NCBI GenBank assembly: GCA_001777915.1 | Contig: MFFN01000003.1 | Location: forward strand, 1 to 64,000 | Source of the DNA: Candidatus Edwardsbacteria bacterium RifOxyA12_full_54_48 | GTDB lineage: Bacteria > Edwardsbacteria > AC1 > EtOH8 | Reading direction: 5' to 3' | DNA: 64,000 nucleotides | Part shown: positions 12,334 through 30,230 of the stretch, in pieces | Position numbering within the stretch: position 1 is the first letter of the stretch | How the letters are laid out: each line of letters begins with the position of its first letter | Notes under the pieces: model-generated | Told to the model about the DNA's origin: nothing | Databases searched by the model: none | Seen by the model: the letters and a program-made list of their open reading frames with translations, nothing else | Translations under genes and position numbers: made by a program

Positions 12334-12753
12334 TTACAGGCTGATGCCGGGGGACAGGGTCAGGGTCAAGATGTCGGTCTTGCCTTCGCCGACGATGGTA
12401 TAGCCGGAGAATGCTCCGTCATAGGTGACTATGCCCGGAGTGGCAGTATGGGTTGCCGAATACTCAATCACGCTGCCCGGGGTCAAGGGATTCTTTAAGT
12501 TAACAGCGTCAATCAAGGCTGAGAAAAGAGTACCTGACGGGGTGGTGGAGGAGCCGTCCTCGGCATAAACGCCATCGTTACGGGTGGAGAAATCCTCGGC
12601 AGTCAGCTGAACGGTGTGCATGTTGGCCTTGATGGCCGATTCCTTGGCCCGGTCCTGCATGGACATAAAGTTGGGGATGGCGATGGCCGCCAGGATGCCA
12701 ATGATGACCACCACGATCATCAGCTCGATGAGGGTAAAACCTTTGCGGGACAT
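12334..12753 (-). CDS. Type IV pilin (PilA-like major pilin candidate)
   Basis: 139 residues. A 5-residue leader MSRKG is followed by the class III signal FTLIELMIVVVIIGILAA, so prepilin peptidase would cut between Gly5 and Phe6 and methylate Phe; Glu5 of the mature protein (residue 10) is present. The hydrophobic N-terminal helix runs to about residue 35 and the globular domain is short, with no cysteine pair. It closely resembles the pilin portion of the fusion protein encoded just upstream, including the SIKSNMHTLQL/AIKANMHTVQL region and the C-terminal L-TPG/L-SPG ending. AAGGAG lies 6 bases before the ATG. A sigma-54-type promoter is upstream and a terminator follows, so it can be transcribed alone at high level. 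Confidence 0.93.
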   Translation of the reverse strand: MSRKGFTLIELMIVVVIIGILAAIAIPNFMSMQDRAKESAIKANMHTVQLTAEDFSTRNDGVYAEDGSSTTPSGTLFSALIDAVNLKNPLTPGSVIEYSATHTATPGIVTYDGAFSGYTIVGEGKTDILTLTLSPGISL

Positions 12754-12816: not shown

Positions 12817-12832
12817 TGCAAGTCTGATGCCA
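12817..12832 (-). promoter_or_regulatory. Sigma-54 (-24/-12) promoter of the pilin gene
   Basis: On the minus strand the sequence reads TGGCATCAGACTTGCA, with the invariant GG and GC exactly 10 bases apart and matching the TGGCA...TTGCA consensus at all ten key positions. Transcription should start near 12806, giving a leader of about 50 bases before the ATG at 12753. A sigma-54 activator is encoded 1.4 kb upstream in the same cluster. Confidence 0.8.
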
Positions 12833-12902: not shown

Positions 12903-12957
12903 GACCTTGCATTTGCTTATATTGTACCATATGACCTTGCATATTGCAAGGTCATAT
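12903..12957. promoter_or_regulatory. Palindrome with extra half-site, candidate activator (UAS) site
   Basis: Bases 12929-12941 and 12945-12957 form a perfect 13-bp inverted repeat (ATATGACCTTGCA / TGCAAGGTCATAT) around a 3-base centre. A third half-site GACCTTGCA is at 12903-12911. The group lies about 95-150 bases upstream of the predicted transcription start of the pilin gene, the usual distance of enhancer sites for sigma-54 activators. It overlaps the TGA stop (12952-12954) of the upstream gene, so it could also act as an RNA hairpin; no T-run follows it, which argues against a terminator. Confidence 0.5.
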
Positions 12958-14034
12958 TGACTGACCCGGAGTTAGTTCCAATGATAATAGCTCAATTTTT
13001 CCAAAACCTCTTATTTTATACCTATCAGCTCTGGTTCCAACACCATCTCCTATTATGGCCCCGGAAGTATCGTAGGTTGTATAAAATACCATACCGGGGT
13101 TTCCAGCAGGATCATCGTTATCCAAATAGGCTAAGGCGTTTTCCTCTTTATTGAAAGGATTGGCATAACCCAAATAGGGACAGATCAGAGAATTGACCGG
13201 GAAAGGTGGTTTATACACGCCTTCGGTAATAGATTTATCTACATTAAATTCGGGATTTACAGCAGAGATCCTAACCTCCAGATCAGCCGGATAAAAACCT
13301 CCGGTCCTGACATTGTAATCTTCCACCACCAATTGCAAAGTATGCATATTGCTTTTGATGGAAGCCTCCAAAGCTCTGGCCCGCATGCTCATGTAATTGG
13401 GCACCGCTATGGCCGCCAATACCCCTATAATCACCACTACGATCATCAGCTCTATCAGGGTGAACCCCTTCTGAGCCGTTTTATTGGCTTTCTGCTGGAT
13501 CCGGTTAAGCTTTTCTATGATCTCCCTATCCACCTTCTGCTCCTCCTTAAGTATGCGGGTGTACACCTCCAGCTCCGACAGTATGGACCTGGCTGTCTCC
13601 TGCTCCCCGGCCACCATCTTCCTGACGCTCTCGGTCATTACATTGAACTGCTGGGCCAGATGATGGCCCTCGTCACCCTTGCGGAATTTCATGGGCCTTT
13701 CAGGCCACCGGCCGCTCTCCAGGTCCCTCATGCCGTTGTTCAGCCTGACCAGCGGCCCGGCGATGCGATGCGAGATGATGATCGCTATCCAGCCCATGAT
13801 AACGATCAGAACCGGCACCACCACCATCAAGGTCTGATTGACCTGATCGAAGATGCTGATTATGGAGACCGCACCGCCGGCAAAATCCTGGCTGGTGATC
13901 CCGTTCCAGATTATCATATAGATAGCCCCGCCCACCAGCAATATCCCGCTGGCCACCATGGCCAAGATCTGGGCTACGATCCTGATCTGCATATCCTTGT
14001 GAGCCAGTATTTTTCGCCTTCTATTTTCAGCCAT
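12952..14034 (-). CDS. HAMP-domain membrane protein fused to a complete type IV prepilin
   Basis: 360 residues in one uninterrupted frame. Residues 1-18 are basic; helices at about 19-43 and 68-88 flank a short periplasmic loop; about 88-140 is a HAMP domain (HRIAGPLVRLNNGM at its start, RKGDEGHHLAQQFNVM in its second helix); about 141-187 is a charged coiled coil. Then comes a full prepilin: K189-G190 followed by FTLIELMIVVVIIGVLAA, with Glu195 as the mature Glu5, a third membrane helix (about 194-213) and a globular domain to residue 360 with a single cysteine. The topology is consistent: the prepilin cleavage site would face the cytoplasm, where prepilin peptidase acts. There is no ATG, GTG or TTG between Met140 and the pilin signal, so the pilin cannot be made separately. 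AAGGA precedes the ATG and a sigma-54 promoter lies upstream. Role (sensory pilin or regulated pilin) is inferred. Confidence 0.85.
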   Translation of the reverse strand: MAENRRRKILAHKDMQIRIVAQILAMVASGILLVGGAIYMIIWNGITSQDFAGGAVSIISIFDQVNQTLMVVVPVLIVIMGWIAIIISHRIAGPLVRLNNGMRDLESGRWPERPMKFRKGDEGHHLAQQFNVMTESVRKMVAGEQETARSILSELEVYTRILKEEQKVDREIIEKLNRIQQKANKTAQKGFTLIELMIVVVIIGVLAAIAVPNYMSMRARALEASIKSNMHTLQLVVEDYNVRTGGFYPADLEVRISAVNPEFNVDKSITEGVYKPPFPVNSLICPYLGYANPFNKEENALAYLDNDDPAGNPGMVFYTTYDTSGAIIGDGVGTRADRYKIRGFGKIELLSLELTPGQSI

Positions 14035-14067: not shown

Positions 14068-14083
14068 AGCAATTATCATGCCC
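14068..14083 (-). promoter_or_regulatory. Sigma-54 (-24/-12) promoter of the HAMP-pilin gene
   Basis: The minus strand reads GGGCATGATAATTGCT, with GG and GC 10 bases apart; only the first position departs from the TGGCAYG-N4-TTGCW consensus. The start site would be near 14057, about 23 bases before the ATG at 14034. Together with the match in front of the neighbouring pilin gene, this argues that both are controlled by the activator at 14162-16333. Confidence 0.75.
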
Positions 14084-16355: not shown

Positions 16356-17567
16356 TTACTTGCCGCCCATCAGGGCCGAGGTCATGCTGAAGATGGGCAG
16401 GTACATGGCGATCACCATGCCGCCGATTCCCAGGCCCAGCACCACCATGATGATGGGCTCCATGGCGGCGGTCAGCCCCTCCACCGCCCCGTCCACCTCC
16501 TCGTCGTAGAAGTCGGCGATCTTGTTGAGCATCTCGTCCAGGCCGCCGGTGGCCTCGCCCACCGCGATCATCTGCACCACCATGGGCGGAAAGATCTTCA
16601 TGGTCTTCAGGGGGGCCGAGATGGTCTCGCCGCCGCCGATGGACTTGCGGGCCGACATGATGGCGTCCTGCACCACCCGGTTGCCGGCGGTCTTGGCGGT
16701 GATCTCCAGGGCGTCCAGGATGGCCACGCCGCTGGACAGCAGGGTGCCCAGGGTCCGGGCGAATCGGGCCACGGCCGATTTCTGCTGGAGGTTGCCCAGG
16801 ATGGGGATTTTAAGCATCAGGGTGTCCAGGTACAGCTGCCCCTTGTCGGTCTTGTACCAGCGCTGCAGGAAGATGATGGCGGCAGTTGCCACAATTATGA
16901 TGGGGATGATGAACTTCTGCAGGAATTTGGAAAGCCCCACCACGAACAGGGTTGGGCCGGGCAGCTTGGCCCCCATTCCGGCGAACATCTTTTCGAAGAT
17001 GGGGATCACGAAGATCAGCAGCACCGCCGCGGCCCCCACCGCCACGGTGATCAGGATCACCGGCATGATCATGGCCCTTTTGACCTTGGCCACCAGGGCC
17101 TCGGCCTTCTCCAGGTAGATGGCCAGGCGCATCAGGATGTTGTCCAGGATACCGCCGGCCTCGCCGGCCGCCGCCATGTTGATATACAGCTCGCTGAACA
17201 CATTCTTCTGCCGGTTCAGGGCCTCGGCCAGGGTGGAGCCGCCCTCCACATCGGTCTTGATGGTCTCCAGCACCTTCTTGAAGGTGGGATTCTCCTGCTG
17301 CTGGGCCTGGATCTCCAGGCAGGACACCAAAGGCAGGCCGGCGTTGATCATGGTGGCGAACTGCCGGGTGAAGATCGACAGGTCCTTGTTGCTGACCTTG
17401 GGCTGCATAAAACTGAGTTTGAGCTCCTTGGGCTTGATCCGCACCGAGGACACAATTATATTTTTCTTGCGCAACGCCTCGATGACCGCGCCTTCGCTTT
17501 CGGCCGTCAGCTCTCCGGATACCAAACCGGCTTTGGAATCGCGCCCTTTCCAGAGATATAGTGGCAT
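16356..17567 (-). CDS. pilC: Type IV pilus inner-membrane platform protein PilC
   Basis: 403 residues with the duplicated T2SSF (GspF/PilC) domain. The N-terminal YLWKGRDSKAGLVSGEL and KDLSIFTRQFATMINAGLPL (about 59-78) are typical. Membrane helices lie at about 165-190, 218-240 and 372-395, and the second repeat begins near residue 268 with VARFARTLGTLLSSGVAIL. PilC connects the cytoplasmic ATPases to the growing pilin fibre. AAGGAG stands 8 bases before the ATG. It lies 57 bases after pilT and 22 bases before the sigma-54 activator gene, all co-directional. Confidence 0.95.
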   Translation of the reverse strand: MPLYLWKGRDSKAGLVSGELTAESEGAVIEALRKKNIIVSSVRIKPKELKLSFMQPKVSNKDLSIFTRQFATMINAGLPLVSCLEIQAQQQENPTFKKVLETIKTDVEGGSTLAEALNRQKNVFSELYINMAAAGEAGGILDNILMRLAIYLEKAEALVAKVKRAMIMPVILITVAVGAAAVLLIFVIPIFEKMFAGMGAKLPGPTLFVVGLSKFLQKFIIPIIIVATAAIIFLQRWYKTDKGQLYLDTLMLKIPILGNLQQKSAVARFARTLGTLLSSGVAILDALEITAKTAGNRVVQDAIMSARKSIGGGETISAPLKTMKIFPPMVVQMIAVGEATGGLDEMLNKIADFYDEEVDGAVEGLTAAMEPIIMVVLGLGIGGMVIAMYLPIFSMTSALMGGK

Positions 17568-17624: not shown

Positions 17625-18695
17625 TTACACCACCGCCTGGCGTTTCTTGATCATCTGGTCCAGTTCCTCAACGTTGGAGGTATAGTCGAAGGCGGTGTCC
17701 AGGGTGATCTTCTTCTCCAGGAACAGGTTCATCAGCGACTGGTTCATGGTCTGCATGCCGTATTTCTGTCCGGCCTGCATCGAGGAATATATCTGGTGGA
17801 CCTTGTCGTCCCGGATCAGGGCCTTGATGGCCGGAGTGCAGACCATCACCTCCAGGCACAGGGCCCGGCCGCCCCGGGTCATGGGGATCAGCTGCTGGGT
17901 GATCACCCCCTCCAGCACGAAGGCCAGCTGGGCCCGCACCTGGGGCTGCTGATAGGGAGGAAAGACGTCGACTATGCGGTGGATGGATTCGGCCGCCGAG
18001 TTGGTGTGCAGGGTGGCCAGGGTCAGGTGGCCGGTCTCGGAGATGTGCAGGGCCGATTCTATGGTCTCCAGGTCCCGCATCTCGCCCACCAGCACCACGT
18101 CGGGATCCTGGCGCAGGGCGTATTTCAGGGCGTTCTTGAAACTCTTGGTGTCCGATTCCAATTCCCGCTGGTTGATGATGCATTTTTTATGATGATGGAT
18201 GTACTCGATGGGATCCTCGACGGTGATGATATGCCCCCGCCGCTCGCTGTTGATCTTGTCGATCATGGTGGCCAGGGTGGTGGATTTGCCCGAGCCGGTG
18301 GGCCCGGTGACCAGCACCAGCCCCTTGGGTTTGTCGGCCAGGGCGGCGGCGATGGGCGGCAGGCCCAGGGCCTGGAAGGAGCGGATCTCCCAGGGGATCA
18401 CCCGCATGGCCATGGCCACGCAGCCCCGCTGCAGAAAGATGTTGCCCCGGAAGCGGGAAAGCCCCTGAATGCCGATGGACAGATCCAGCTCCCGCTCGGT
18501 CTCAAAGCGTTTCTTCTGGGTGTCCTTCAGGATGCTGTAGGCCAGCTGCTCTGTCATTTGCGGGGTGAGCGGCTCGTGGGAGGTCTGCATCAGTTCGCCG
18601 TCCACCCGGATCACCGGCGGTACGCCCACCGTCAGGTGCAGATCGCTCCCCTTCTTCTGGATCATCTCCTCCAGGAGTTGGGTAAGAGTCACCAT
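17625..18695 (-). CDS. pilT: Type IV pilus retraction ATPase PilT
   Basis: 356 residues, the usual PilT length, without the long N-terminal domain of PilB. Walker A is GPTGSGKS (131-138), the Asp box is HIITVEDPIEYIHHHKKCII, Walker B is VVLVGEMRDLETI and the His box is TGHLTLATLHTNSA. The C-terminal AIKALIRDDKVHQIYSSMQ corresponds to the AIRNLIRE retraction motif. It powers pilus disassembly and therefore twitching motility or DNA uptake. Upstream of the ATG the sequence reads AAGGATGGGC. It is 99 bases after the third PilB gene. Confidence 0.96.
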   Translation of the reverse strand: MVTLTQLLEEMIQKKGSDLHLTVGVPPVIRVDGELMQTSHEPLTPQMTEQLAYSILKDTQKKRFETERELDLSIGIQGLSRFRGNIFLQRGCVAMAMRVIPWEIRSFQALGLPPIAAALADKPKGLVLVTGPTGSGKSTTLATMIDKINSERRGHIITVEDPIEYIHHHKKCIINQRELESDTKSFKNALKYALRQDPDVVLVGEMRDLETIESALHISETGHLTLATLHTNSAAESIHRIVDVFPPYQQPQVRAQLAFVLEGVITQQLIPMTRGGRALCLEVMVCTPAIKALIRDDKVHQIYSSMQAGQKYGMQTMNQSLMNLFLEKKITLDTAFDYTSNVEELDQMIKKRQAVV

Positions 18696-18794: not shown

Positions 18795-20558
18795 CTATCC
18801 CTCGGCGGTCTCGCGGAACATCTCCTCCACCGTGGTCAGGCCCTGTTTGACCTTGCCCCAGGCGTCCATCCGCAGGGTCAGCATGCCCTGCTCCACCGCC
18901 TTGGCCCTGATGGAGGTCACCGCCTCCCGGTTCAGTATCAGGTCCCTGATGTCGGGAGAGATGGGCATCACCTCGTAGAGGCCCACCCGGCCCTTGTACC
19001 CGGTGTTGTTGCAGATGGGGCAGCCCCTGCCCTTGTAATAAGTGACCCCGGCCACCTCCTCGGCTTTGAACCCCATGTCGATCAGGGACTGGGGATTGAT
19101 CTGAAATGGCTCCTTGCAGGCCTTGCATATCCGGCGCACCAGCCGCTGGGCCTGGATCAGCACGGTGGAAGAGGCCACCAGAAACGGCTCGATCCCCATA
19201 TCGATCAGGCGCGACACCGACGACGGGGCGTCGTTGGTATGCAGGGTGGACAGCACCAGATGTCCGGTCAGGGCGGCCTTGACCGCAATGGCGGCGGTGG
19301 GGCCGTCGCGGATCTCGCCCAGCATGATGATGTTGGGGGCCTGCCGCAGCATGGCCCGGAGGGCCACGTCAAAGGTAAAACCTATGCCCAGCTCGGCCTG
19401 GACCTGGTTGACCCCTTTCAGATTATATTCGATGGGATCCTCCACCGTCAGGATGTGCCGGTCCGGCGTGTTCAGCTGGGATAGGGCGGAATACAGGGTG
19501 GTGGTCTTTCCCGACCCGGTGGGGCCGGTGATCAGGACTATGCCGTAAGGGGCATGGATGGCTTTCATGAAATTCTTCAGGGCCAGCTCGGTAAAGCCGA
19601 AGTTGGCCAGGTCCAGGGTCAGCGATCCGGCGTCCAGGATACGCATCACCACCTTCTCCCCGAACAGCACCGGCAGGGTGGAGACCCGCAGGTCTATCTT
19701 CTTGTTAAGCACCTTGATGGCGATGCGGCCGTCCTGGGGCTTGCGGCGCTCGGTGACATCCAGCTTGGACATGATCTTGATGCGGGAGACCAGCGGGGCT
19801 TTCATCCGCATGGGCGGCTCCATCAGGGTCTGCAGCACGCCGTCCTGCCTTAATCTTATCCGGAAGACCTTCTCGTAGGGCTCCACATGGATGTCCGAGG
19901 CCCCGCGACGGACCGCCTCGGTCATGATGTAATTCACCATCTTGACCACCGGAGTGGAGGAGCCGGCCTGCTGGGCATCGGCCAGGTCCTCGTCCTGCTC
20001 CAGGTCATCCACCATCTCCATCTCGATGTCTTCCCCCAGCCCCTCCAGGGCCGTGTCCTCGGGCAGGCTCTCGATGGCCTCTTCCTTGACCTGGCTCAGC
20101 TGGCCGCCGGAGGCGATCACCTGGACGTCCTTGCCCAGCGGATAGTGCTGTTCCAGCAGTTTCTTGACGGCCGAATAGCTGGCCACCACCGGCTTGACAT
20201 CCAGCCCGGTGAGGAATTTGATGTCCTCCAGGGCGAAGATATCGGAGGGATCGATCATGGCCAGGGTCAGGGCCCGGCCCAGGCGTTTTATCGGGATCAC
20301 CATGAATTTGTTGGCGATGTCCGGCCGGACCAGCTTGATGACCGCCGACTCCACCTGGAAATTGCTCAGGTCCATGGCCGGGACGGTGAACTGCCGGGAC
20401 ATGAACTGCATGGCCACGTTCTCGGTGACCATCCCCATCCGGACCATGGTGGCGGCCAACGGCTCGTTGCTGTTCTTCTGCTCCAGGGCGGCCTGGTCGT
20501 ACTGGGCCTTGGTCAGGAGCCCCATCTTCAAAAGCATGTCGGCTATGTTTTGCGCCAT
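18795..20558 (-). CDS. pilB: PilB-type pilus assembly ATPase, paralogue 3
   Basis: 587 residues. An N-terminal MshEN-type region (1 to about 150) precedes the GspE/PilB ATPase with Walker A GPTGSGKTTT, Asp box ILTVEDPIEYNLKGVN, Walker B IIMLGEIRDGPTA and His box TGHLVLSTLHTNDA. Two CxxC pairs (CKACKEP and CPICNNTGYKGR) form the usual zinc site. The second MshEN motif is eroded: PLAATMVRMG replaces the RLGxxLVxxG seen in paralogue 2, so binding of cyclic di-GMP there is doubtful. An acidic linker (MEMVDDLEQDEDLADAQ) separates the domains. The ATPase looks intact. It is one of three tandem copies; which drives which pilus is unknown. Confidence 0.92.
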   Translation of the reverse strand: MAQNIADMLLKMGLLTKAQYDQAALEQKNSNEPLAATMVRMGMVTENVAMQFMSRQFTVPAMDLSNFQVESAVIKLVRPDIANKFMVIPIKRLGRALTLAMIDPSDIFALEDIKFLTGLDVKPVVASYSAVKKLLEQHYPLGKDVQVIASGGQLSQVKEEAIESLPEDTALEGLGEDIEMEMVDDLEQDEDLADAQQAGSSTPVVKMVNYIMTEAVRRGASDIHVEPYEKVFRIRLRQDGVLQTLMEPPMRMKAPLVSRIKIMSKLDVTERRKPQDGRIAIKVLNKKIDLRVSTLPVLFGEKVVMRILDAGSLTLDLANFGFTELALKNFMKAIHAPYGIVLITGPTGSGKTTTLYSALSQLNTPDRHILTVEDPIEYNLKGVNQVQAELGIGFTFDVALRAMLRQAPNIIMLGEIRDGPTAAIAVKAALTGHLVLSTLHTNDAPSSVSRLIDMGIEPFLVASSTVLIQAQRLVRRICKACKEPFQINPQSLIDMGFKAEEVAGVTYYKGRGCPICNNTGYKGRVGLYEVMPISPDIRDLILNREAVTSIRAKAVEQGMLTLRMDAWGKVKQGLTTVEEMFRETAEG

Positions 20559-20596
20559 ATATCAACAATCTATCTATGATGTGTTTGATTATCCTG

Positions 20597-22324
20597 CTAC
20601 TCGGCGGCGGCCACGGTCTCCTTGATGACCTCTTCGATGGTGGTTATACCGCTGCGGACCTTGTGGATGCCGTCCATCCGCAGGGTGGACATCCCTTCTT
20701 TCACAGCCTGGGCCTCTATCTTGAAGGTGGGGGCCCGCTCCAGTATCAGGTCCCTGATGGCCGGGCTAATCGGCAGGATCTCGGCCAGGCCGATCCGGCC
20801 CTTGTATCCGGTATTGCGGCACTCCGAACAGCCCTTGCCCCGGAAGGCGGTGAAACCGGCGATATCCACCTTGTCGCCCAGAAATTCGCGCAGCATCTTT
20901 TCCTCCGGTTTGTACTGCTCCTTGCAGTAGGAGCAGATCTTGCGGACCAGCCGCTGGGATTCCACCAGCAGCAGCGAAGAGGCGATCATGAACGGCTCCA
21001 CCCCCATGTCCACCAGCCGGGTGATGGTCAGCGAGGCGCTGTTGGTGTGGACGGTGGACAGCACCAGATGCCCGGTGAGCGATGACCGGATGGCGATCTC
21101 GGCCGTCTGCCGGTCGCGGATCTCTCCCACCATGATGATGTTGGGATCCTGCCTTAAAAAGGCTTTCAGGGCGGCGGTAAAGGTGGTGCCGCCTTCCTCG
21201 TGCACCGCCACCTGATTGACCCCCATCAGACTGTACTCCACCGGCTCCTCGGCGGTCATGATATTGGTGTCCGGATGGTTGATGGATTCCAGGCAGGCGT
21301 ACATGGTGGTGGTCTTGCCGGAGCCGGTGGGCCCGGTGACCAGCACGATCCCGAAGGGCGTCTGGATGGCCTTCAACAGATATTTCAGCGGCTCCGGCTC
21401 GAACCCCAGGGTGGGCAGGTCGAATGACACCGCGCTGCGGTCCAGAATGCGCAGGGCCACCTTCTCCCCGAAGGCGGTGGGGATGATGGACACCCGGATG
21501 TCTATCGGCTTGCCCTGGATGATCATCCGCAGGCGGCCGTCCTGGGGAAAGCGCTTTTCCTCGATCTTTAATTTGGCGATGATCTTTATCCGGGCCGCTA
21601 TGGAGCTCTTCATCCTTAAGGGGGGCGACATCACCTCGTGCAGCACGCCGTAGACCGACATCCGGACCCGGATCTCCTTCTCATAGGGCTCGATGTGGAT
21701 GTCGGTGGCATTGCGCTTGACCGCCTCGGCTATCAGGCCGTTGACCAGCTTGGCCGCCGGGCTGCTCTCGATGGCCGCGGCCATCTCCGAGGCGGAATCT
21801 CCGCCCGCCTCCTGCTGTTCCTCCAGGACCTCCAGGTCTCCGGCATCCACGTCGGCCTCGGCCTCATCCATGGCCTTCATCACATCCTCCAGCATGCCGG
21901 CCGACCCGTATTGCTTGTCGATGGCCGACCAGATGGCGGCCTCGGAGGCTATCACCGGACGGACCTCGAAACCGGTGGAGAATTTTATGTCCTCCATGGC
22001 CAGGACATCGTTGGGGTTGACCATGGCCACGGTCACGCTCCGTCCCAGGCGCGACAGGGGGATCAGTCCGTACTTCTGGGCTATATGGGGCGGTATCAGT
22101 TTAAGGACGGGCTCGTCGATCTTGTAATCGTTCAGGTTGACCGAGGGGACGTTGAACTGCTTGCTCAAGAAGGCCACCACCTCGTCCTCGGTGACAAATC
22201 CCAGTTTTACCAGCAGGGAGCCCAGCCTCTGGCCCGAGGTCTGCTGTTCCTTAAGGGCCTGCTCCAACTGCTCCGGGCTGATCATCCCGGCCTTGAGAAG
22301 CATATCTCCAACTTTTAACGCCAT
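20597..22324 (-). CDS. pilB: PilB-type pilus assembly ATPase, paralogue 2
   Basis: 575 residues. Both MshEN half-motifs are well kept: KVGDMLLKAGMISPEQLEQA near the N-terminus and RLGSLLVKLGFVTEDEVVAF (about 32-51), matching the known cyclic di-GMP binding pattern of MshE-like ATPases. The ATPase core has Walker A GPTGSGKTTT, Walker B IIMVGEIRDRQTA, His box TGHLVLSTVHTNSA and the CxxC pairs CSYCKEQ and CSECRNTGYKGR. It should energise pilin polymerisation at PilC, possibly under second-messenger control. Spacing to the neighbours is 35-38 bases. Confidence 0.94.
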   Translation of the reverse strand: MALKVGDMLLKAGMISPEQLEQALKEQQTSGQRLGSLLVKLGFVTEDEVVAFLSKQFNVPSVNLNDYKIDEPVLKLIPPHIAQKYGLIPLSRLGRSVTVAMVNPNDVLAMEDIKFSTGFEVRPVIASEAAIWSAIDKQYGSAGMLEDVMKAMDEAEADVDAGDLEVLEEQQEAGGDSASEMAAAIESSPAAKLVNGLIAEAVKRNATDIHIEPYEKEIRVRMSVYGVLHEVMSPPLRMKSSIAARIKIIAKLKIEEKRFPQDGRLRMIIQGKPIDIRVSIIPTAFGEKVALRILDRSAVSFDLPTLGFEPEPLKYLLKAIQTPFGIVLVTGPTGSGKTTTMYACLESINHPDTNIMTAEEPVEYSLMGVNQVAVHEEGGTTFTAALKAFLRQDPNIIMVGEIRDRQTAEIAIRSSLTGHLVLSTVHTNSASLTITRLVDMGVEPFMIASSLLLVESQRLVRKICSYCKEQYKPEEKMLREFLGDKVDIAGFTAFRGKGCSECRNTGYKGRIGLAEILPISPAIRDLILERAPTFKIEAQAVKEGMSTLRMDGIHKVRSGITTIEEVIKETVAAAE

Positions 22325-22359
22325 GTCATGTCTTATTTAAAGGTTAGATATTGTGATTA

Positions 22360-24054
22360 TCAATCTGAGGCCGTCTCCACGATGGCCGCCTCCATGGTGG
22401 TGATGCCTTTTCTGACCTTATCCAGGGCGTCCTCCCGCAAAGATTTCATCCCCAGCTTGATCGCCATCTCCCTGATCTCATCGGTGGAGGCCCGGGAGAC
22501 TATCAGCCTTCTTATCTCAGGGCCGATGGTCATCACCTCAAACACCCCCACCCGGCCCTTGTATCCGGTATTATTGCACTCCAGGCAGCCCTTGCCCTTG
22601 AAGAACTCCACTCCCTGGAAGCTGGCGGGATCGATCCCCATCTTGACCATCTCCTCCGGAGATATCTTCTCGGGCTCCTTGCATTTTGAGCAGACGCGCC
22701 TGACCAGGCGCTGGGCCTCGATCAGGTTTACCGTGGCGGCTATCAGGAAGGGCGGGATCTCCATATCCAGCAGGCGGTTCAGCGAACTGGGAGCATCATT
22801 GGTGTGCAGGGTGGACAGCACCAGATGTCCGGTCATGGCCGCGGTCATGGCGATCTCGCCGGTCTCCCGGTCCCGGATCTCCCCCACCAGCACGATGTTG
22901 GGGTCCTGCCGCAAAAAGGCCTTCAGGGCCTTGGCAAAGGTATAGCCGATCTCCGGGCGGACGTTGACCTGGTTGATCCCCACAATGTCGTATTCCACCG
23001 GATCCTCGGCGGTGACGATGTTGACCCCGGGTTTGTTCAGGCGGGAGATGCCGGAATACAGGGTGCGGGTCTTGCCCGAGCCGGTGGGACCGGTGACCAG
23101 TATCATGCCGGTGGGCCGGGTCAGGGCTTTCAAAATATCATCCAGGGCTTTGCCCTCGATGCCCAGCTGGGTCAGGTCGCCGCCCAGGCTGGTCTGCTCC
23201 AGCACCCGGATGACGATCTTCTCGCCGTATTTGATGGGCATGGTGGACACCCGCAGATCCACTGTCCGGTCGATAAGTTTGATGGAGAACCTTCCGTCCT
23301 GCGGCAGGCGCCGCTCGGTGAGGTTCAATTTGGAAAGCACCTTGATGCGCGAGGCCAGGGCCGCCGAGATCCGGCGGGGCGGCGACATGGTCTCCTGAAG
23401 AACCCCGTCTATCCGGTAGCGCACCCTCAGGATCTTTTCGTAGGGCTCTATATGGATGTCCGACGCCCCGCGCTTGATGGCGTCGATGACGATGCTGTTG
23501 ACCAGTTTCACCACCGGGGTGGATTCGATCTCGGCCTGGCTGGCCACCTCATCCATGTCCTTCTCCACCAGCTCCATGTCCTCGGCGGCGATCTCCTGCT
23601 CCACCGACTTCAGGGCCTCGGCCCGGGTGGTGCTGCCGTAATGCTTGTCCAAAGCCTTCTCCAGCGAGGTCTCGGCGCAAACCACCGGCTTGACCTCCAT
23701 CCCGGTGAGGAAGGCGATATTCTCCATGGTGAACACGTCGGCGGCGTTGGACATGGCCAGAAACAGGGTCCGCCCGGTCCGCTTGATCGGCATCACCTGG
23801 AATTTCTGGGCTATTTCCGGTGGGATAAGTTTTAGAACCTGGGGATCCAGTTCGGCGGTGGAAAGATTCACCGTGGGAAGGTTTAGCTGCTTGCCCAGGA
23901 ACTGGGTGATGGAGTCTTCGGTCATAAACCCCAGCTTTATAAGACTGGAGCCCAGCTTGGCTCCGGAGCTTTTTTGCTCGGCCAAGGCCTTGTCCAGCTG
24001 ATCTTTGGTTATCAACTCGGACTGCACCAGCATGTCGCCTAATTTCAAACCCAT
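22360..24054 (-). CDS. pilB: PilB-type pilus assembly ATPase, paralogue 1
   Basis: 564 residues from the ATG at 24054, chosen because GAGGGAG lies about 6 bases upstream and the protein then begins MGLKLGDMLVQSELITKDQ like its paralogues; a further in-frame ATG 15 codons upstream is unlikely. The second MshEN motif is KLGSSLIKLGFMTEDSITQF, close to consensus. Walker A GPTGSGKTRT, Walker B IVLVGEIRDRETG, His box TGHLVLSTLHTNDA and the CSKCKEP/CLECNNTGYKGR zinc pairs are present. It is the first gene after the predicted promoter at 24077-24106 and probably heads the operon running through pilC. Confidence 0.94.
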   Translation of the reverse strand: MGLKLGDMLVQSELITKDQLDKALAEQKSSGAKLGSSLIKLGFMTEDSITQFLGKQLNLPTVNLSTAELDPQVLKLIPPEIAQKFQVMPIKRTGRTLFLAMSNAADVFTMENIAFLTGMEVKPVVCAETSLEKALDKHYGSTTRAEALKSVEQEIAAEDMELVEKDMDEVASQAEIESTPVVKLVNSIVIDAIKRGASDIHIEPYEKILRVRYRIDGVLQETMSPPRRISAALASRIKVLSKLNLTERRLPQDGRFSIKLIDRTVDLRVSTMPIKYGEKIVIRVLEQTSLGGDLTQLGIEGKALDDILKALTRPTGMILVTGPTGSGKTRTLYSGISRLNKPGVNIVTAEDPVEYDIVGINQVNVRPEIGYTFAKALKAFLRQDPNIVLVGEIRDRETGEIAMTAAMTGHLVLSTLHTNDAPSSLNRLLDMEIPPFLIAATVNLIEAQRLVRRVCSKCKEPEKISPEEMVKMGIDPASFQGVEFFKGKGCLECNNTGYKGRVGVFEVMTIGPEIRRLIVSRASTDEIREMAIKLGMKSLREDALDKVRKGITTMEAAIVETASD

Positions 24055-24076: not shown

Positions 24077-24106
24077 AATATAGCATATGCAAGTTGCAAA
24101 TGTCAA
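24077..24106 (-). promoter_or_regulatory. Sigma-70-type promoter for the pilB-pilB-pilB-pilT-pilC run
   Basis: On the minus strand a consensus -35 TTGACA (24101-24106) is followed after 18 bases by TATATT (24077-24082). The start site would be about 24070, leaving a short leader that contains GAGGGAG before the ATG at 24054. The pilus motor genes therefore appear to have a housekeeping promoter, in contrast with the sigma-54 promoters of the two pilin genes. Confidence 0.6.
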
Positions 24107-24133: not shown

Positions 24134-24556
24134 TTAATGGTCTACAAATACATGTTCCCTGAGCCGGTTGAATTTTTTATGACCGATGCCCTTGACCTTC
24201 ATCAGGTCCTCGATTTTCTGGAAATCGCCGGATTCCCTCCTGAAATCAATTATTTTTTTGGCCATCGCCGGGCCGATGGCCGGAAGCTTCTCCAGGTCCC
24301 GCGGCCCGGCCCGGTTGAGGTCAATCTTTTCGGCCGGGACCTTTTTGGCGGCCCATCGATTTTTTGCGGCAGCCGGTTGTTCTTTCTGCCAGGGGGGCGG
24401 TTGTTCGATGGCCCGGGGCAGGTCCGGGCCGCCGTATTTAAGCTCCGGGGCAGCGCCCGGATGGCTTTTCTTGTAGAGCAGCACGGCATTGCCCAGCGCC
24501 AAGGCCACAATAAAAAAAATTATTACCTTTTTTTCATCCGGCGTTAACCCAAACAT
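24134..24556 (-). CDS. Membrane-anchored ComEA-like helix-hairpin-helix protein
   Basis: 140 residues from the ATG at 24556, preceded by GGTGGGG; an upstream in-frame ATG would overlap the sprA-like gene. Residues about 10-27 form one membrane helix (VIIFFIVALALGNAVLLY), then a Pro/Ala-rich linker, then tandem helix-hairpin-helix motifs: KIDLNRAGPRDLEKLPAIG (about 77-95) and EDLMKVKGIGHKKFNRL (about 117-133). This is the ComEA layout: a membrane-tethered periplasmic DNA-binding protein that pulls transforming DNA inward. The neighbouring type IV pilus genes make natural competence plausible, although ComEC is not in the window. Confidence 0.82.
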   Translation of the reverse strand: MFGLTPDEKKVIIFFIVALALGNAVLLYKKSHPGAAPELKYGGPDLPRAIEQPPPWQKEQPAAAKNRWAAKKVPAEKIDLNRAGPRDLEKLPAIGPAMAKKIIDFRRESGDFQKIEDLMKVKGIGHKKFNRLREHVFVDH

Positions 24557-24575
24557 ATTCCCCACCAACCAAGCG

Positions 24576-27500
24576 TTAAAACTTGATCTCCACCGAGGCA
24601 TTGAAGGCGGTTCGGTCGCTGTTATTGCTCCTGGCAATCTTGTCCTTGGTGAAGCTGTAGTCAACCGAGGCCGATCCGGTGATGCTTCTGGTGAAATTGT
24701 ACTTGGCGCTGGGCGACATGGTAAATGAGTGAACCAGCGAGGTGTAGCCCAGCTCGGTTATCTTTTCATAGCTGGTCTCGGCAAGCAGCTGTTTCAGGGC
24801 GGCTATCTCCCCTTCCGGGATCTCATTCCTGGCGCCGATGATGGAATAGCCGAACAGTGATGCCAGGCTGAGCTCGCTGTTGAATTTTATCCTCTTTTTG
24901 CCCAGCTTCCACAGGTTGAGCTTGAAACCCTTGGGGGCGCTGAAGGAATAGGAAACGGAACTGCTGGTCTTAAAGGTCTGGTTGTAGGTGTCCCGCCCCT
25001 GGCCGATAATGTCGTCGTTCTTCTGGCTGCTGTAATCAAAGGCCAGGCTGGTGCTGATGTTCTTCTTCCATCTCCCGGACATTGAAAGTATCGGGCTGAA
25101 ATTGTTCTTGGTGGAGATCCTGACCAGCGCCTTCTGGTTCTCCCAGGTCTTGTCGATGGTCCGGCTGTAAGAGGAGGTCAGGCTGGCGCTGGTCAGGGTC
25201 TTTTTCCACAGGCCCCATCTCTCCAGGCCGGCCAGGGTGGCCCTCAGCTCAGGCCAGGTGACGCTGCGGCTGGAGTTCTGGGCATCGCCCACAATGATGG
25301 TATCATCGCTGCGGCGGAAGGAAAGGTTCAGCGACAGCCTCATCAGCTCCAGGCTGGTGCCCAGGGAGTATGAGTTGCGGATGGTATTGCGGTCGGCGCT
25401 GGCCTGAAAATACCTGGGGATATCCGCCACCTGCTGCTTCAGGCCGAACTGGTACAACAGATCGGGGCGCCTCATCAGCAGGTTCGAGGCCTGGCTGGAG
25501 TTATCACGGCTGAACGAGGCCTGGACCCCTCCCAGCTTGTTGAACAGGTAATCGATCTTTGTCACCAGCCATCGGGGGCTTCCCACCTCGGCCGAATCGT
25601 CCCGGGCCTTGTTGCGCCAGCCGGTGACTTTGGCCAGCCATTTGCCCACCTCCAGGCTGCTGTTCAGGGACAGGCTGTTGGAATTGCTGACGTTCAGCAG
25701 GTGGAAGGTGTCCACGATGCTGGGCTTGGCAGCCAGGCTGTGGCCCTCGCTGTATTGGGTGGAGAAGGCCAGGCTGGGCTTGATGACCTTCAGCCAGCCC
25801 AGGGTGGTGCTGTAGTTCACCCTCTGGGAACGTGAGGTCTCGGACCCCAGGCCGAACTTTCTGGCCCATTCCCCCTGAAAGAACCGGTCCTTCAGGTTTC
25901 TGGTGGTGTTGAAGGAGTAACTCAACGAATTCATCAGCTGCCAGGAGAGCTGTCCCTGGCCGTTTCGGGTCTCCCCGCTGCCATTGTTGTTCTTGACACC
26001 GGTAAGCTTGTCCCAATACCAACGCTGGGTTTGGTTGCGGGACCATCCCAGGCCCAGGGAGCTGGGCAGATAATAAAATTGCCACCCCGGCCAGGTCTTG
26101 AAGGATTTTTTTTCTCCCGAGCTCCAGCCATAGCCCAGGCTCAGGCCGGTGGAGGTGTTGCTGTCCGCCGTGGTCCGGCTGTCGGAGACGCTGCGGCTCC
26201 AATTGAACCGGGGCGAGATCCGGTCGATGGTAAGATTGGTCAGCCACCATTGGGTCATGCTCTTGGAGAAGGAAACGTCAAACCCGGCATTCCGGGAGAA
26301 GGCCCTCTGGGCCCGGCTCTCCTCCTCGGTAAGCCTGATATCGTCAGCCCCGTATTCGCCATACTGCTGGGATTCGCCGTATCGGAAGCCGACGGGAAGG
26401 GCCAGCCCCAGCCGTTCCAGATACAGCTTATGGGCATTGAGGCTGCCGTTCAGGCTGTAGCTTATATTCTTGACCCCGGAGCCGGTGCCGTCGGTATCGA
26501 TCCCATACCAGTGGCTTCCGGTCTTGTTGTATGCGGCGTTGAGCGATAACAGGTCGGCAAAGTTGATCGAGGCGCTGGAGGCAATGGCGGTGCCCCGGTC
26601 CCGGCGGACATCGTCCAGCCGCAGTTCGTCGAACCAGACCTCGTCGCTGAAGATCCGGCCGGTGTCGTCATTGAAAATGCACAAAGCGATCCCGTTAAGT
26701 TCCTTCAAGCTGGGATTTCCCTTCAGGGAATAGTTGCCGCTGGTCCTTATCTTATTGGTGGTATCCGTCGGGAACGGCAGCTTCTTCAGGTCGCTGAAGG
26801 TTAGGACATCCATGATCATCTCCTGCCAGCCGGAAGACAGCGTTTGCTTGTATTGATAGTAACTGTTGGGATCGTTGCCGATCAGCCGCAGGGCGAACGA
26901 TTTCCTGACCCGGGTGGTGTCGTTGCTGTGGGCCCAGATCTTCAGGGTTTTATACCCGGTGTAATTATTCTCCTTATCCCGCAGTATTTTCCAGGCTTTG
27001 ACATAATGCCCGGAGCCCAGGCTGTCGATGTTGAAAACCAGGCTCTGCTCGAACTCCACCCTCCCTTGGTCGTCCTTCTGTTCGGTATTGGGGGGCAGAC
27101 TATAATCGGGATTATCCCGATTGTTCTTTACCTCTATGGTGAACTTTTCGGAGGAGGCCACGGCGTCGAGGGTGTCGTTGGAAAAAACCCCCTCCTCCTG
27201 CCAGCGGTTGCCGCTGACCTCTACCATGGCTATCTCAAAAGCGGTGCTGGCCGGACAGCTGTCCACCCAGATCCGGGCATACTGTATGGAACTCCAGCCC
27301 AGCTGGGGCCCCACCGGCTGGGCGGTATCCAGCAGAGCCGACAGCTGGTGCCAGCCATAAGCATTGGTATCACTTTTAGAGAGATCGAAACGGAAAGTGT
27401 AATAATTATTGCCCAGCTGGGGCACGTCCAGAGAATCCAGACCGTTCATCTTGAGATCCTCGGTATCGTAATAACCGTTGCCCTCGGTGCCGTTTATTTT

Positions 27501-30230
27501 GCTGTAATCCGGTTTGGTTATGTCAACCACATAATCATCGGCCCCGTCGTCGCCCGATGAGGCCAAATAAGTGCTGTCATTACCCTTCACCCGGTCCAGG
27601 CCGATATCGTGGGCATCCATTAATACCGGCTCCCGGTTGAGGTTCAAAGGCTCGCAGTCCACTTTATTATTCTGGGGATGCAAACCCTTCTTGGTCCACC
27701 ACACCTGATCCTCATCTATATTACGGCCGATATCTATATGGACTATTCCTTTACTATTTAAGCCCCTTATCCAGAGGTTCAGCAGTTTGCTCTGGCTTAA
27801 GTCCAGCCCGGTTTTGCTTAACAGCTGGGTGACCCCGGCCCAAGAGTTCAGAGTGTCCTGATGTCCGGCTTCATATATCAACCGCAATGTTCTGATGGTT
27901 TCGTTCCTCTGGGTCTCGTCGGTGATGGCGGGATTGATCTCCTTCATGGTGACCTGGGTGGTGGGGTTGTACCAGTAAAATGTTCTGGCCAGCATGGTGT
28001 CGGTCTTGCCCGGGGGGACGCTGGTGCGCACCCAGGCCGAGCGGCTGAGGTTGAACTCGTCGGACACCTTGCTGCCGTCCATATCGTCAATGTACACCTG
28101 GCCCTTGGTATTGGGGTTGGGAAAGTTGCCGGCGATCTCGCCGGTAAGCTTAAAGTTTGACGGGGCCTCGGTCTCCACCAGGGGCAGGGCATTGGTCCAG
28201 CTGGTGAGAAAATCGGGGGCGGCCTGGTAGCTTCCGTCCAGCCCGGCCACGATTATCCGGCGGGGCTCCTCGCCCAGCCGGGGCTTTTCATCCGGGGTCT
28301 GCTCGCTGCGGTACAGCCAGGTGCCTCCCAGCTGCCCGCTCTCCCCGAATTTATAGATGCCCCGCAGGCCGGCCAGGGTCTTGGACCCCAGAGCGAACGA
28401 CGGCAGGTACTGGTAATCTATCTTAAGGGCGGCGCTGCTGCCCTGGAGGATGGTCTTGATCCGGTCGTTGAAGGTGACGGTGCCCATATCGTAATCCACC
28501 GTATATTCGCTGGAAGAGACCGGTGATCCGTTCAGGGTGACGCTGACCGTCCCCTCCAGCAGACGGCCCGGGGCATTCAGGGCATACATTGCCACGGTGG
28601 ACTTATAGGTGATCAAAAAACGGAATTTGGCGGAATAATTGGTCAAATTCTTCACCCGGTAGATATCGGGGCAGCTGTCCGGCAGGGCCGGGGACAGGAA
28701 CGGTTGATCTTGAGGGAAGGAGAAATAGCCCTCCTCTTGATTGATATAATAATCATTAAGGTTTCCGTCAGATTCCAGGAACAGAAGCTCCAGGAATGTT
28801 TTCTGGCTGTCAAGATCATTCTCCAACCATTCATTCTCTTTGCGGTATTGCAGCTTTATGGTCAGGGTGGAGAAATCGATCCCTCGTCCATTTAACGAAT
28901 AATAATTTCTTTTTTCATAATTCCAACAGTAGCCGTTTATGGAATCCGGGGGCTGGCAGTTGGCCGGCTTCACCAGCATCAGGGTGTCCGAATTGTCGAA
29001 ATCATGCTTGCTGGGATAATAACCGCCGTTTTTGGTCTTGTAGGCCACCCCCAGCACCGATTGGTCATAGATGCCGTTGGTAAGGATTATCCGTCCGGTG
29101 ACGGGATTGTCCAGGATGAAATCGGTGATCTCGGTCTTGATGTCCATTTTAACCGGGCCGTAAATGGTATCCCGGGCAATTCCCCTGAAATCCCGCCAGC
29201 TCCGGTCCTTCAGATAATGGGGGATGGCATTGGGGGTGACGTAATCATTGCCCGACTTAATATATACTTTTATGGCCTCAATAGCATCGCCCCCCGCCAA
29301 TCCCCCGGGAATGATCTCATATACCGTATACTGCATGAATTCATTGTCCGGATGGGTGACGGAAGACGCTACGTTCGAGCCGGAGAAGGTGTTGGTCTGG
29401 TTCTGTCCCTCGTCCTTGCTGGCGATGGCCGTCAGCTCGAAGCCCCCCAGCCGGGCCACCCCTTTCAGCCCGAACAGGCCCTTGTGGACCGTGGTCAATC
29501 CGCCCACCAGCGAGGAGCCGCTCAGGGAAAATTCGGTGTCGCCGGCCTCCAGGCTCTGCAGCACCTCGTCCTCCTGGCCCTCGTACCGCAGACGGACCTT
29601 GCTGCGCTTGTCAATTTCGGCCTCGCTGTCGTAATCGATCAGAACATGGACCCGGTCCCCGATCACCCCCTCCAGGTTCACCCGTTGCTCCTGCTTGATG
29701 TTTATCTTGTTGTCGTCGGTGGTGGCATTGGCGTCCAGGTCCCGGCCGATCTGGTTATAAGTGGTCCGGTCGTATCCGGCGGTTATCTTCTGGTTGCCGC
29801 TGACCTTTATCTGGGCCCCGGAGCCGAAGGCCTTGCCCAGCCCCGGAATGGGTATCTGGATATCGGGGATCAAACCCTCCCCGGTCCTCTCCTGGGGCGG
29901 CTTTGACAAAAAGGCATAATTATTCTTTGACCAGACGCTGTCAGTTCCAGCAGTTCGCAGTTTTTCCCAGAAGGCGGGCAAGCTGTAATACCGGATGGCA
30001 AATGGCTGCTGAGAAACAAGCTCCTGTTCTATCATCAGCCCCAGCCGGTAGTCGATGCTATAGCTGCTGGTCTGGGCGCTTTTCCGGAAGCCTTCAGCAT
30101 TATAATCCGCCGTGATATCCTCCCATGGTCCGAATTCCTGGGCCCCGGCCTTTCCGGCGATGGTCAACGCCAGGGCCCCCATTACGGCAGCTAAAGATAG
30201 CGGATATATTTTGGATTTTCTATTGAGCAT
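24576..30230 (-). CDS. sprA: SprA-like giant outer-membrane beta-barrel (T9SS translocon homologue)
   Basis: 1884 residues with a signal peptide (about 1-31, ending GKAGAQ). SprA family hallmarks are visible in order: VNLEGVIGDRVHVLIDYDSE (about 200-220), VYIDDMDGSKVSDEFNLS (near 713) and VWFDELRLDDVRRDRGTAIA (near 1197), followed by a long run of alternating amphipathic strands and a C-terminal Phe typical of outer-membrane barrels. In Bacteroidota SprA is the roughly 36-strand pore of the type IX secretion system and is about 2400 residues, so this homologue is shorter. No other T9SS component (GldK-N, PorV, CTD cargo) is in the window. The gene is divergent from lptF across 83 bases and is followed after 19 bases by the ComEA-like gene. 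Confidence 0.85.
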   Translation of the reverse strand: MLNRKSKIYPLSLAAVMGALALTIAGKAGAQEFGPWEDITADYNAEGFRKSAQTSSYSIDYRLGLMIEQELVSQQPFAIRYYSLPAFWEKLRTAGTDSVWSKNNYAFLSKPPQERTGEGLIPDIQIPIPGLGKAFGSGAQIKVSGNQKITAGYDRTTYNQIGRDLDANATTDDNKINIKQEQRVNLEGVIGDRVHVLIDYDSEAEIDKRSKVRLRYEGQEDEVLQSLEAGDTEFSLSGSSLVGGLTTVHKGLFGLKGVARLGGFELTAIASKDEGQNQTNTFSGSNVASSVTHPDNEFMQYTVYEIIPGGLAGGDAIEAIKVYIKSGNDYVTPNAIPHYLKDRSWRDFRGIARDTIYGPVKMDIKTEITDFILDNPVTGRIILTNGIYDQSVLGVAYKTKNGGYYPSKHDFDNSDTLMLVKPANCQPPDSINGYCWNYEKRNYYSLNGRGIDFSTLTIKLQYRKENEWLENDLDSQKTFLELLFLESDGNLNDYYINQEEGYFSFPQDQPFLSPALPDSCPDIYRVKNLTNYSAKFRFLITYKSTVAMYALNAPGRLLEGTVSVTLNGSPVSSSEYTVDYDMGTVTFNDRIKTILQGSSAALKIDYQYLPSFALGSKTLAGLRGIYKFGESGQLGGTWLYRSEQTPDEKPRLGEEPRRIIVAGLDGSYQAAPDFLTSWTNALPLVETEAPSNFKLTGEIAGNFPNPNTKGQVYIDDMDGSKVSDEFNLSRSAWVRTSVPPGKTDTMLARTFYWYNPTTQVTMKEINPAITDETQRNETIRTLRLIYEAGHQDTLNSWAGVTQLLSKTGLDLSQSKLLNLWIRGLNSKGIVHIDIGRNIDEDQVWWTKKGLHPQNNKVDCEPLNLNREPVLMDAHDIGLDRVKGNDSTYLASSGDDGADDYVVDITKPDYSKINGTEGNGYYDTEDLKMNGLDSLDVPQLGNNYYTFRFDLSKSDTNAYGWHQLSALLDTAQPVGPQLGWSSIQYARIWVDSCPASTAFEIAMVEVSGNRWQEEGVFSNDTLDAVASSEKFTIEVKNNRDNPDYSLPPNTEQKDDQGRVEFEQSLVFNIDSLGSGHYVKAWKILRDKENNYTGYKTLKIWAHSNDTTRVRKSFALRLIGNDPNSYYQYKQTLSSGWQEMIMDVLTFSDLKKLPFPTDTTNKIRTSGNYSLKGNPSLKELNGIALCIFNDDTGRIFSDEVWFDELRLDDVRRDRGTAIASSASINFADLLSLNAAYNKTGSHWYGIDTDGTGSGVKNISYSLNGSLNAHKLYLERLGLALPVGFRYGESQQYGEYGADDIRLTEEESRAQRAFSRNAGFDVSFSKSMTQWWLTNLTIDRISPRFNWSRSVSDSRTTADSNTSTGLSLGYGWSSGEKKSFKTWPGWQFYYLPSSLGLGWSRNQTQRWYWDKLTGVKNNNGSGETRNGQGQLSWQLMNSLSYSFNTTRNLKDRFFQGEWARKFGLGSETSRSQRVNYSTTLGWLKVIKPSLAFSTQYSEGHSLAAKPSIVDTFHLLNVSNSNSLSLNSSLEVGKWLAKVTGWRNKARDDSAEVGSPRWLVTKIDYLFNKLGGVQASFSRDNSSQASNLLMRRPDLLYQFGLKQQVADIPRYFQASADRNTIRNSYSLGTSLELMRLSLNLSFRRSDDTIIVGDAQNSSRSVTWPELRATLAGLERWGLWKKTLTSASLTSSYSRTIDKTWENQKALVRISTKNNFSPILSMSGRWKKNISTSLAFDYSSQKNDDIIGQGRDTYNQTFKTSSSVSYSFSAPKGFKLNLWKLGKKRIKFNSELSLASLFGYSIIGARNEIPEGEIAALKQLLAETSYEKITELGYTSLVHSFTMSPSAKYNFTRSITGSASVDYSFTKDKIARSNNSDRTAFNASVEIKF

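Follow-up and report, generated by a model that had tools for sequence, protein, structure and literature searches.

Three tandem PilB-type ATPases, one predicted to have lost cyclic di-GMP binding, at a type IV pilus locus of Candidatus Edwardsbacteria

The stretch of DNA analysed here (the window, 64,000 nucleotides, contig MFFN01000003.1) is part of the 2.7-Mb genome, in 9 contigs, of Candidatus Edwardsbacteria bacterium RifOxyA12_full_54_48. It carries a type IV pilus locus in which three PilB-type ATPase genes, termed B1, B2 and B3, lie head to tail on the minus strand (Table 1). All three open reading frames are intact, with no internal stops. The gaps between B1 and B2 and between B2 and B3 are 35 and 38 bases, followed by 99 bases between B3 and pilT and 57 bases between pilT and pilC. 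An alternative start for B1 exists at a TTG codon (24099), and homologues favour the ATG at 24054. The three proteins are about 50% identical to each other. The locus was compared across 10 genomes from one family and four genera, namely the genome of the window (G000) and nine relatives (G001 to G009); B2 of the closest relatives is 92-95% identical to B2 of the window. The co-directional order pilB1-pilB2-pilB3-pilT-pilC is kept in the family genomes wherever contigs span the locus. Since the same genes recur in the same order, the triplet arrangement is not a chance one.

Each of the three proteins comprises an MshEN domain and a T2SSE domain, with Walker A (GPTGSGKT), Asp box, Walker B (GEIRD), His box and CxxC pairs all present; the Asp box of B2 reads EEPVE, not EDPVE. 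The preliminary description of this DNA, made from the sequence, was thus right that three intact PilB-type ATPases follow each other. The best-scoring family for all three is TIGR02538, the type IVa pilus PilB equivalog (cut-off 675.65 bits), by a wide margin for B2 and B3. B1 scores above the cut-off (692.9), B3 0.2 bits under it (675.5) and B2 2.9 bits under it (672.8). With the GspE model TIGR02533, the three copies reach 564.6-569.5 bits, all under the cut-off of 630.25. The linkage to pilT and pilC holds for all three genes, and B1 to B3 are predicted type IVa pilus extension ATPases.

Table 1. Features of the pilus locus, in positions of the window. Motif scores are out of 22 key positions.
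Feature	Position	Strand	Remarks
pilB copy 1 (B1)	22360..24054	-	564 amino acids; cyclic di-GMP motif kept; known from Edwardsbacteria only
pilB copy 2 (B2)	20597..22324	-	575 amino acids; motif kept; where other phyla have a tandem pair, orthologous to its upstream copy
pilB copy 3 (B3)	18795..20558	-	587 amino acids; motif lost, with an intact ATPase; where other phyla have a tandem pair, orthologous to its downstream copy
B1 MshEN_N motifs I and II	23887..24045	-	KLGDMLVQSELITKDQLDKALAEQ / KLGSSLIKLGFMTEDSITQFLGKQ; 20/22
B2 MshEN_N motifs I and II	22157..22315	-	KVGDMLLKAGMISPEQLEQALKEQ / RLGSLLVKLGFVTEDEVVAFLSKQ; 20/22
B3 MshEN_N motifs I and II	20391..20549	-	NIADMLLKMGLLTKAQYDQAALEQ / PLAATMVRMGMVTENVAMQFMSRQ; 13/22; both key glycines replaced by alanine
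pilT, retraction ATPase	17625..18695	-	TIGR01420 491 bits, cut-off 319
pilC	16356..17567	-	sole T2SSF platform gene found in the genome
Single protein with PilS-like membrane region, PAS, sigma-54 activator and Fis-type helix-turn-helix	14162..16333	-	
In-frame fusion of a HAMP membrane protein and a type IV pilin	12952..14034	-	
Type IV pilin	12334..12753	-	
Promoter-like site TTGACA-18-TATATT	24077..24106	-	11/12, TG before the -10; adjoins the 5' side of B1; a consensus match only
ComEA-like helix-hairpin-helix protein	24134..24664	-	syntenic 5' of the pilB genes, TA06 included

MshEN domains bind cyclic di-GMP (c-di-GMP) through two 24-residue motifs, RLGxx(LVI)(LVI)xxG(LVI)(LVI)xxxxLxxxLxxQ. 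The glycine of RLG is critical, and the bases are held by a cluster of Leu10, Leu54 and Leu58 (PMC5013675). In MshE, Gly11 is required for binding, and the L10A/L54A/L58A variant does not bind c-di-GMP yet behaves as constitutively active (PMC5013675, PMC7096442). Replacement of the first motif arginine by lysine or leucine is tolerated (PMC11731258), and B1 and B2 were therefore counted as intact. Motifs were scored by a scheme of our own, with 11 key positions per motif and R, K or L allowed at the first place. The second-motif strings quoted in the preliminary description are correct to the letter for the three copies, but the loss that it called graded is not: B1 and B2 score equally and B3 far lower (Table 1), so that by sequence the pattern is a two-state one, with two motifs kept and one lost. 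NF053729, the independent NCBIfam model of the c-di-GMP motif (cut-off 38 bits), separates the copies likewise, at 72.7 bits for B2 and 69.2 for B1 versus 36.3, under the cut-off, for B3. The proposal that the copies may answer differently to c-di-GMP stands at the level of sequence, as two states and not as a gradient.

The same division runs through the family, where the motif totals are 19-21 for B1, 19-20 for B2 and 11-14 for B3. Both RLG-type glycines are present in all complete family copies of B1 and B2. The motif II glycine of B3 is alanine or valine in 10/10 copies, and the motif I leucine (position 20 in B2) is tyrosine or histidine in all 10 as well; the loss therefore predates the divergence of the family. 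The motif I glycine of B3 is alanine or serine in some genera and retained in others. At the places of MshE L10, L54 and L58, B3 has I, A and M; most of the leucine cluster is altered. Of the 11 motif positions that single-copy PilBs conserve best, B3 deviates at 4 and B1 and B2 at none (Fisher p 0.008, B3 versus B1 and B2 together). Relative to its own ATPase domain, the motif deviations of B3 are not significantly enriched (4/11 versus 38/218, p 0.12).

B3 is altered but maintained. Purifying selection acts on all three copies. The ATPase domain of B3 is 82-86% identical across genera, the highest of the three (72-79% for B1 and B2), with a ratio of nonsynonymous to synonymous substitution rates (dN/dS) of 0.12-0.21, and it has the fewest deviations (38/218, versus 45 and 57 for the other two copies). 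Its N-terminal domain has invariant residues of its own (E32, P33, A36, R40, T45-V48 and S54-Q56). A model of this domain built from family sequences has the MshEN fold (predicted local distance difference test score 89.3), and its best PDB match is MshE (5htl, template modelling (TM) score ~0.7). B3 is not decaying, given that no other copy has so conserved an ATPase domain and that the MshEN fold is still predicted; pseudogenisation is ruled out by the dN/dS values and the intact catalytic motifs.

We searched the family genomes for PilC, the platform on which the extension ATPases would act. G000 and eight of the relatives each yielded a single T2SSF (PilC) gene, while in the ninth (G005) the contig ends before pilC. 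Because a single PilC gene was found per genome, the three PilBs appear to share one platform. No GspF or GspD partners of a type II secretion system were found, the sole T2SSF gene being the pilC of the window, and no secretin was seen in G000, where the first 20 kb of one contig (C7:1-20000) read as N. A separate type II secretion system was rejected on the PilC count and the GspE score; the preliminary description had named such a system, with partners elsewhere and no shared history, as evidence that would overturn its reading, and none was found. Its suggestion that the copies serve different machines finds no support; they may serve different pilins. Neither the secretin nor PilM was seen in G000. 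This apparent absence is probably an artefact, because PilQ occurs in 9/9 of the other family members, G002 has a complete pilMNOPQ operon, and C7:1-20000 reads as N. The genome gives 14 GGDEF matches, which suggest that c-di-GMP could be synthesised in the cell.

Other motor genes lie outside the locus. A fourth extension-type ATPase (G000:C2:234326-235873, L107) is TfpB-like, with 646.8 bits for NF053534 (cut-off 850, not reached) and 524.5 for PilB. It has no pilC nearby, lies close to FtsK and HD-domain genes, and is conserved in most family genomes. Six PilT-family ATPases, all above the TIGR01420 cut-off, are encoded on contigs C1, C2, C4 (two) and C5 (two). With the pilT of the locus this makes seven retraction ATPases, two tandem pairs among them, for one PilC.

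In an independent sample, the 80 best relatives, a single PilB was seen in 71, a tandem pair in 5 and a triplet in 4, the last all Edwardsbacteria; some of the contigs are incomplete. The statement of the preliminary description that most loci have one PilB is thereby borne out. The MshEN_N columns were left out of the trees to keep the motif trait from shaping them. B1, B2 and B3 of Edwardsbacteria each form one clade (100/100). B2 clusters with the upstream copy (100/98), and B3 with the downstream copy (87/93), of tandem pairs in TA06, Cloacimonadota, Stahlbacteria and others. Approximately unbiased (AU) tests rejected both a recent triplication within Edwardsbacteria, with B1, B2 and B3 as a single clade (p-AU 0.0016), and a single clade of B2 and B3 (p-AU 0.0007). 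From this grouping and these rejections, the B2/B3 duplication is, by phylogeny, older than these groups, or the pair moved as a unit. Whether the triplication is ancient was a question raised with the preliminary description; the B2/B3 split is ancient, and both lineages recur in other phyla.

In these other phyla, tandem B2-like/B3-like pairs precede pilT-pilC. TA06 has SprA-like and ComEA-like genes at the same upstream place, and no B1. Among the pairs before pilT-pilC, loss of the motif from the downstream copy is seen in Edwardsbacteria, Stahlbacteria (L035) and the phylum of G039 (4 genomes). A further loss from the downstream copy falls in a separate duplication, found in 4 genomes, namely G027 and those of the phylum of G038. 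The motif is retained in the downstream copy of TA06, Cloacimonadota, L022, L075, G118 and G033. No loss in an upstream copy was found among the tandem pairs compared. Parsimony over the tandem rows gives 4 changes, that is about four independent losses, all in the downstream copy (4/4, one-sided sign test p 0.06). As a pattern, recurrent loss restricted to the downstream copy is no more than suggestive.

We propose, with a probability of roughly 0.6, that the locus encodes the motor module of a single type IVa pilus machine, whose extension ATPases, both c-di-GMP-gated and ungated, are interchangeable. B1 and B2 would bind c-di-GMP through MshEN_N and, by analogy with MshE of Vibrio cholerae, be switched on by it. 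B3, judged by its motifs, would be unable to bind c-di-GMP and would extend pili independently of it, supplying basal extension when c-di-GMP is low. The three motors would dock in turn on the same PilC, and pilus output could be changed by a swap of motors rather than by modification of a single one. More tentatively, tandem extension ATPases on a single platform might be a recurrent and ancient regulatory design in several little-known phyla, in which the upstream copy or copies remain gated, the pilT-proximal copy has repeatedly become c-di-GMP-blind, and c-di-GMP chooses the motor that engages the platform.

Several observations weigh against this proposal. MshE variants at G11 are inactive, not constitutive, and loss of the motif alone therefore does not predict an active B3. 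Motif I of B1 has no turn glycine in G000 (SE for xG), and motif II reads MK for xG in some relatives; because of these replacements B1 may bind c-di-GMP more weakly. B2 has V at the places of MshE L10 and L54. PilB2 of Clostridium perfringens binds c-di-GMP with its ATPase rate unchanged (review PMC11656802). The organism is uncultured and most of the relatives are metagenome-assembled drafts. Finally, the unread 20 kb of contig C7 could conceal components, although eight relatives give the same PilC count.

Four alternatives were weighed. B3 may have lost direct binding and still hear c-di-GMP through an adaptor of the PilZ/FimX type, as PilB of Xanthomonas and Pseudomonas does, which we consider unlikely. 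Xanthomonas citri PilB is without the MshEN motif and binds PilZ (PMC8389850), and the modelled B3 N-terminal domain, which keeps the MshEN fold and its own invariant residues, resembles the N-domain of X. citri PilB in its PilZ-bound structures 7lkm and 7lko (TM ~0.65). Such a resemblance is, however, expected of any MshEN fold, and no PilZ or FimX was recognised among the annotated pilus-operon genes, no search aimed at either having been made.

It is rather less probable that B1, B2 and B3 form mixed hexamers, in which the ratio of c-di-GMP-binding to blind subunits would tune the response of one ring. Extension ATPases have been reported to cross-interact in two-hybrid assays (PMC11656802), the three genes are co-directional and closely adjacent, and the Walker, Asp and His boxes and CxxC pairs are intact and common to all copies. 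Against such rings stands the low identity between the copies. The solved PilB hexamers are, to our knowledge, homomeric. It is also quite improbable that the copies drive different pilins or machines, the possibility raised in the preliminary description; here a type II secretion system is counted among the machines. At least two pilin genes lie 3' of the motor genes and at least 4/9 relatives have a second secretin-like protein, but one PilC was found per genome, every copy missed the GspE cut-off (565-570 versus 630 bits), and the three copies stay together at the locus across the whole family. Least probable is that the motif loss in B3 is without regulatory meaning and stems from a constraint relaxed once the gene had duplicated: dN/dS of MshEN_N among close relatives is somewhat higher in B3 (0.08-0.20) than in B1 and B2 (0.01-0.08), but it is well under 1, the domain has its own invariant residues and retains its fold in the model, and in about four lineages the loss recurs, always in the downstream copy.

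The locus shares its gene order and orientation with Myxococcus-type loci, which read pilB-pilT-pilC-pilS/R-pilA; such single-pilB loci are seen among the 80 best relatives. It differs from them in having three pilB genes instead of one and, as regulator, a single PilS-like and sigma-54 protein. In Acinetobacter baylyi, PilB and TfpB are two extension motors on one pilus (PMC8213720). More than one extension ATPase per type IV pilus would be common to both cases, and a TfpB-like ATPase is also present in G000; however, the A. baylyi motors come from distant families and c-di-GMP is unmentioned in PMC8213720, whereas here three clustered PilB paralogues differ in their c-di-GMP motif. The N-terminal domain of V. 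cholerae MshE with its two 24-residue motifs is kept in B1 and B2. In V. cholerae, however, there is one motor per machine and the blind form is an engineered mutant, whereas B3 would be a natural blind copy beside sensing ones. Thermus PilF, with three GSPII domains, likewise has several MshEN-like modules, which differ in c-di-GMP affinity, one being non-binding; these modules lie in one polypeptide and not on three separate ATPases. PilBs without the motif are already known in Xanthomonas and Pseudomonas (PMC8389850). Their MshEN-like domain, which works with PilZ-FimX, resembles that of B3, but no c-di-GMP-binding sister motor on the same platform has been described there. Our searches of open-access papers found neither a tandem array of PilB paralogues serving one platform with unlike c-di-GMP motifs nor the recurrence of such an array. 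The paralogous motors of this locus, apparently on one platform, form a natural set in which this motif varies, and the same asymmetry arose repeatedly in other phyla.

The HAMP-pilin protein (360 amino acids) comprises two transmembrane segments, a HAMP domain (E 1e-4, just under the Pfam cut-off), a coiled-coil-like stretch and a complete type IV pilin, whose prepilin motif GFTLIEL begins at residue 190. The fusion recurs without interruption in G002, G003 and G006 (two genera), where the motif again begins at residue 190 and the HAMP halves are 50-69% identical; a pilin with a 189-residue membrane 'leader' is therefore likely real. The G001 pilin is without the HAMP part. A limited literature search found no paper on such a fusion. 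Two sigma-54-like -24/-12 sites (12817-12832 and 14068-14083, minus strand), with 1 and 2 mismatches, lie just 5' of the pilin and HAMP-pilin genes and adjoin the sigma-54 activator gene; over the window as a whole, matches of this kind occur no more often than expected by chance, and position is the sole support for these two.

On the other side of the locus, the ComEA-like gene lies directly 5' of the pilB genes in most family members, in TA06 and in G039-type loci, which hints at DNA uptake by the pilus of the locus. Next to the locus, the minus strand at 24576-30230 encodes a 1884-residue SprA_N protein, syntenic in the family and in TA06. It is related to the outer-membrane translocon used in type IX secretion and gliding. 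In G002, a gene for an apparently exported protein of 1429 residues with a sorting-type C-terminal end (L097:9991-14280) is inserted between pilB1 and pilB2.

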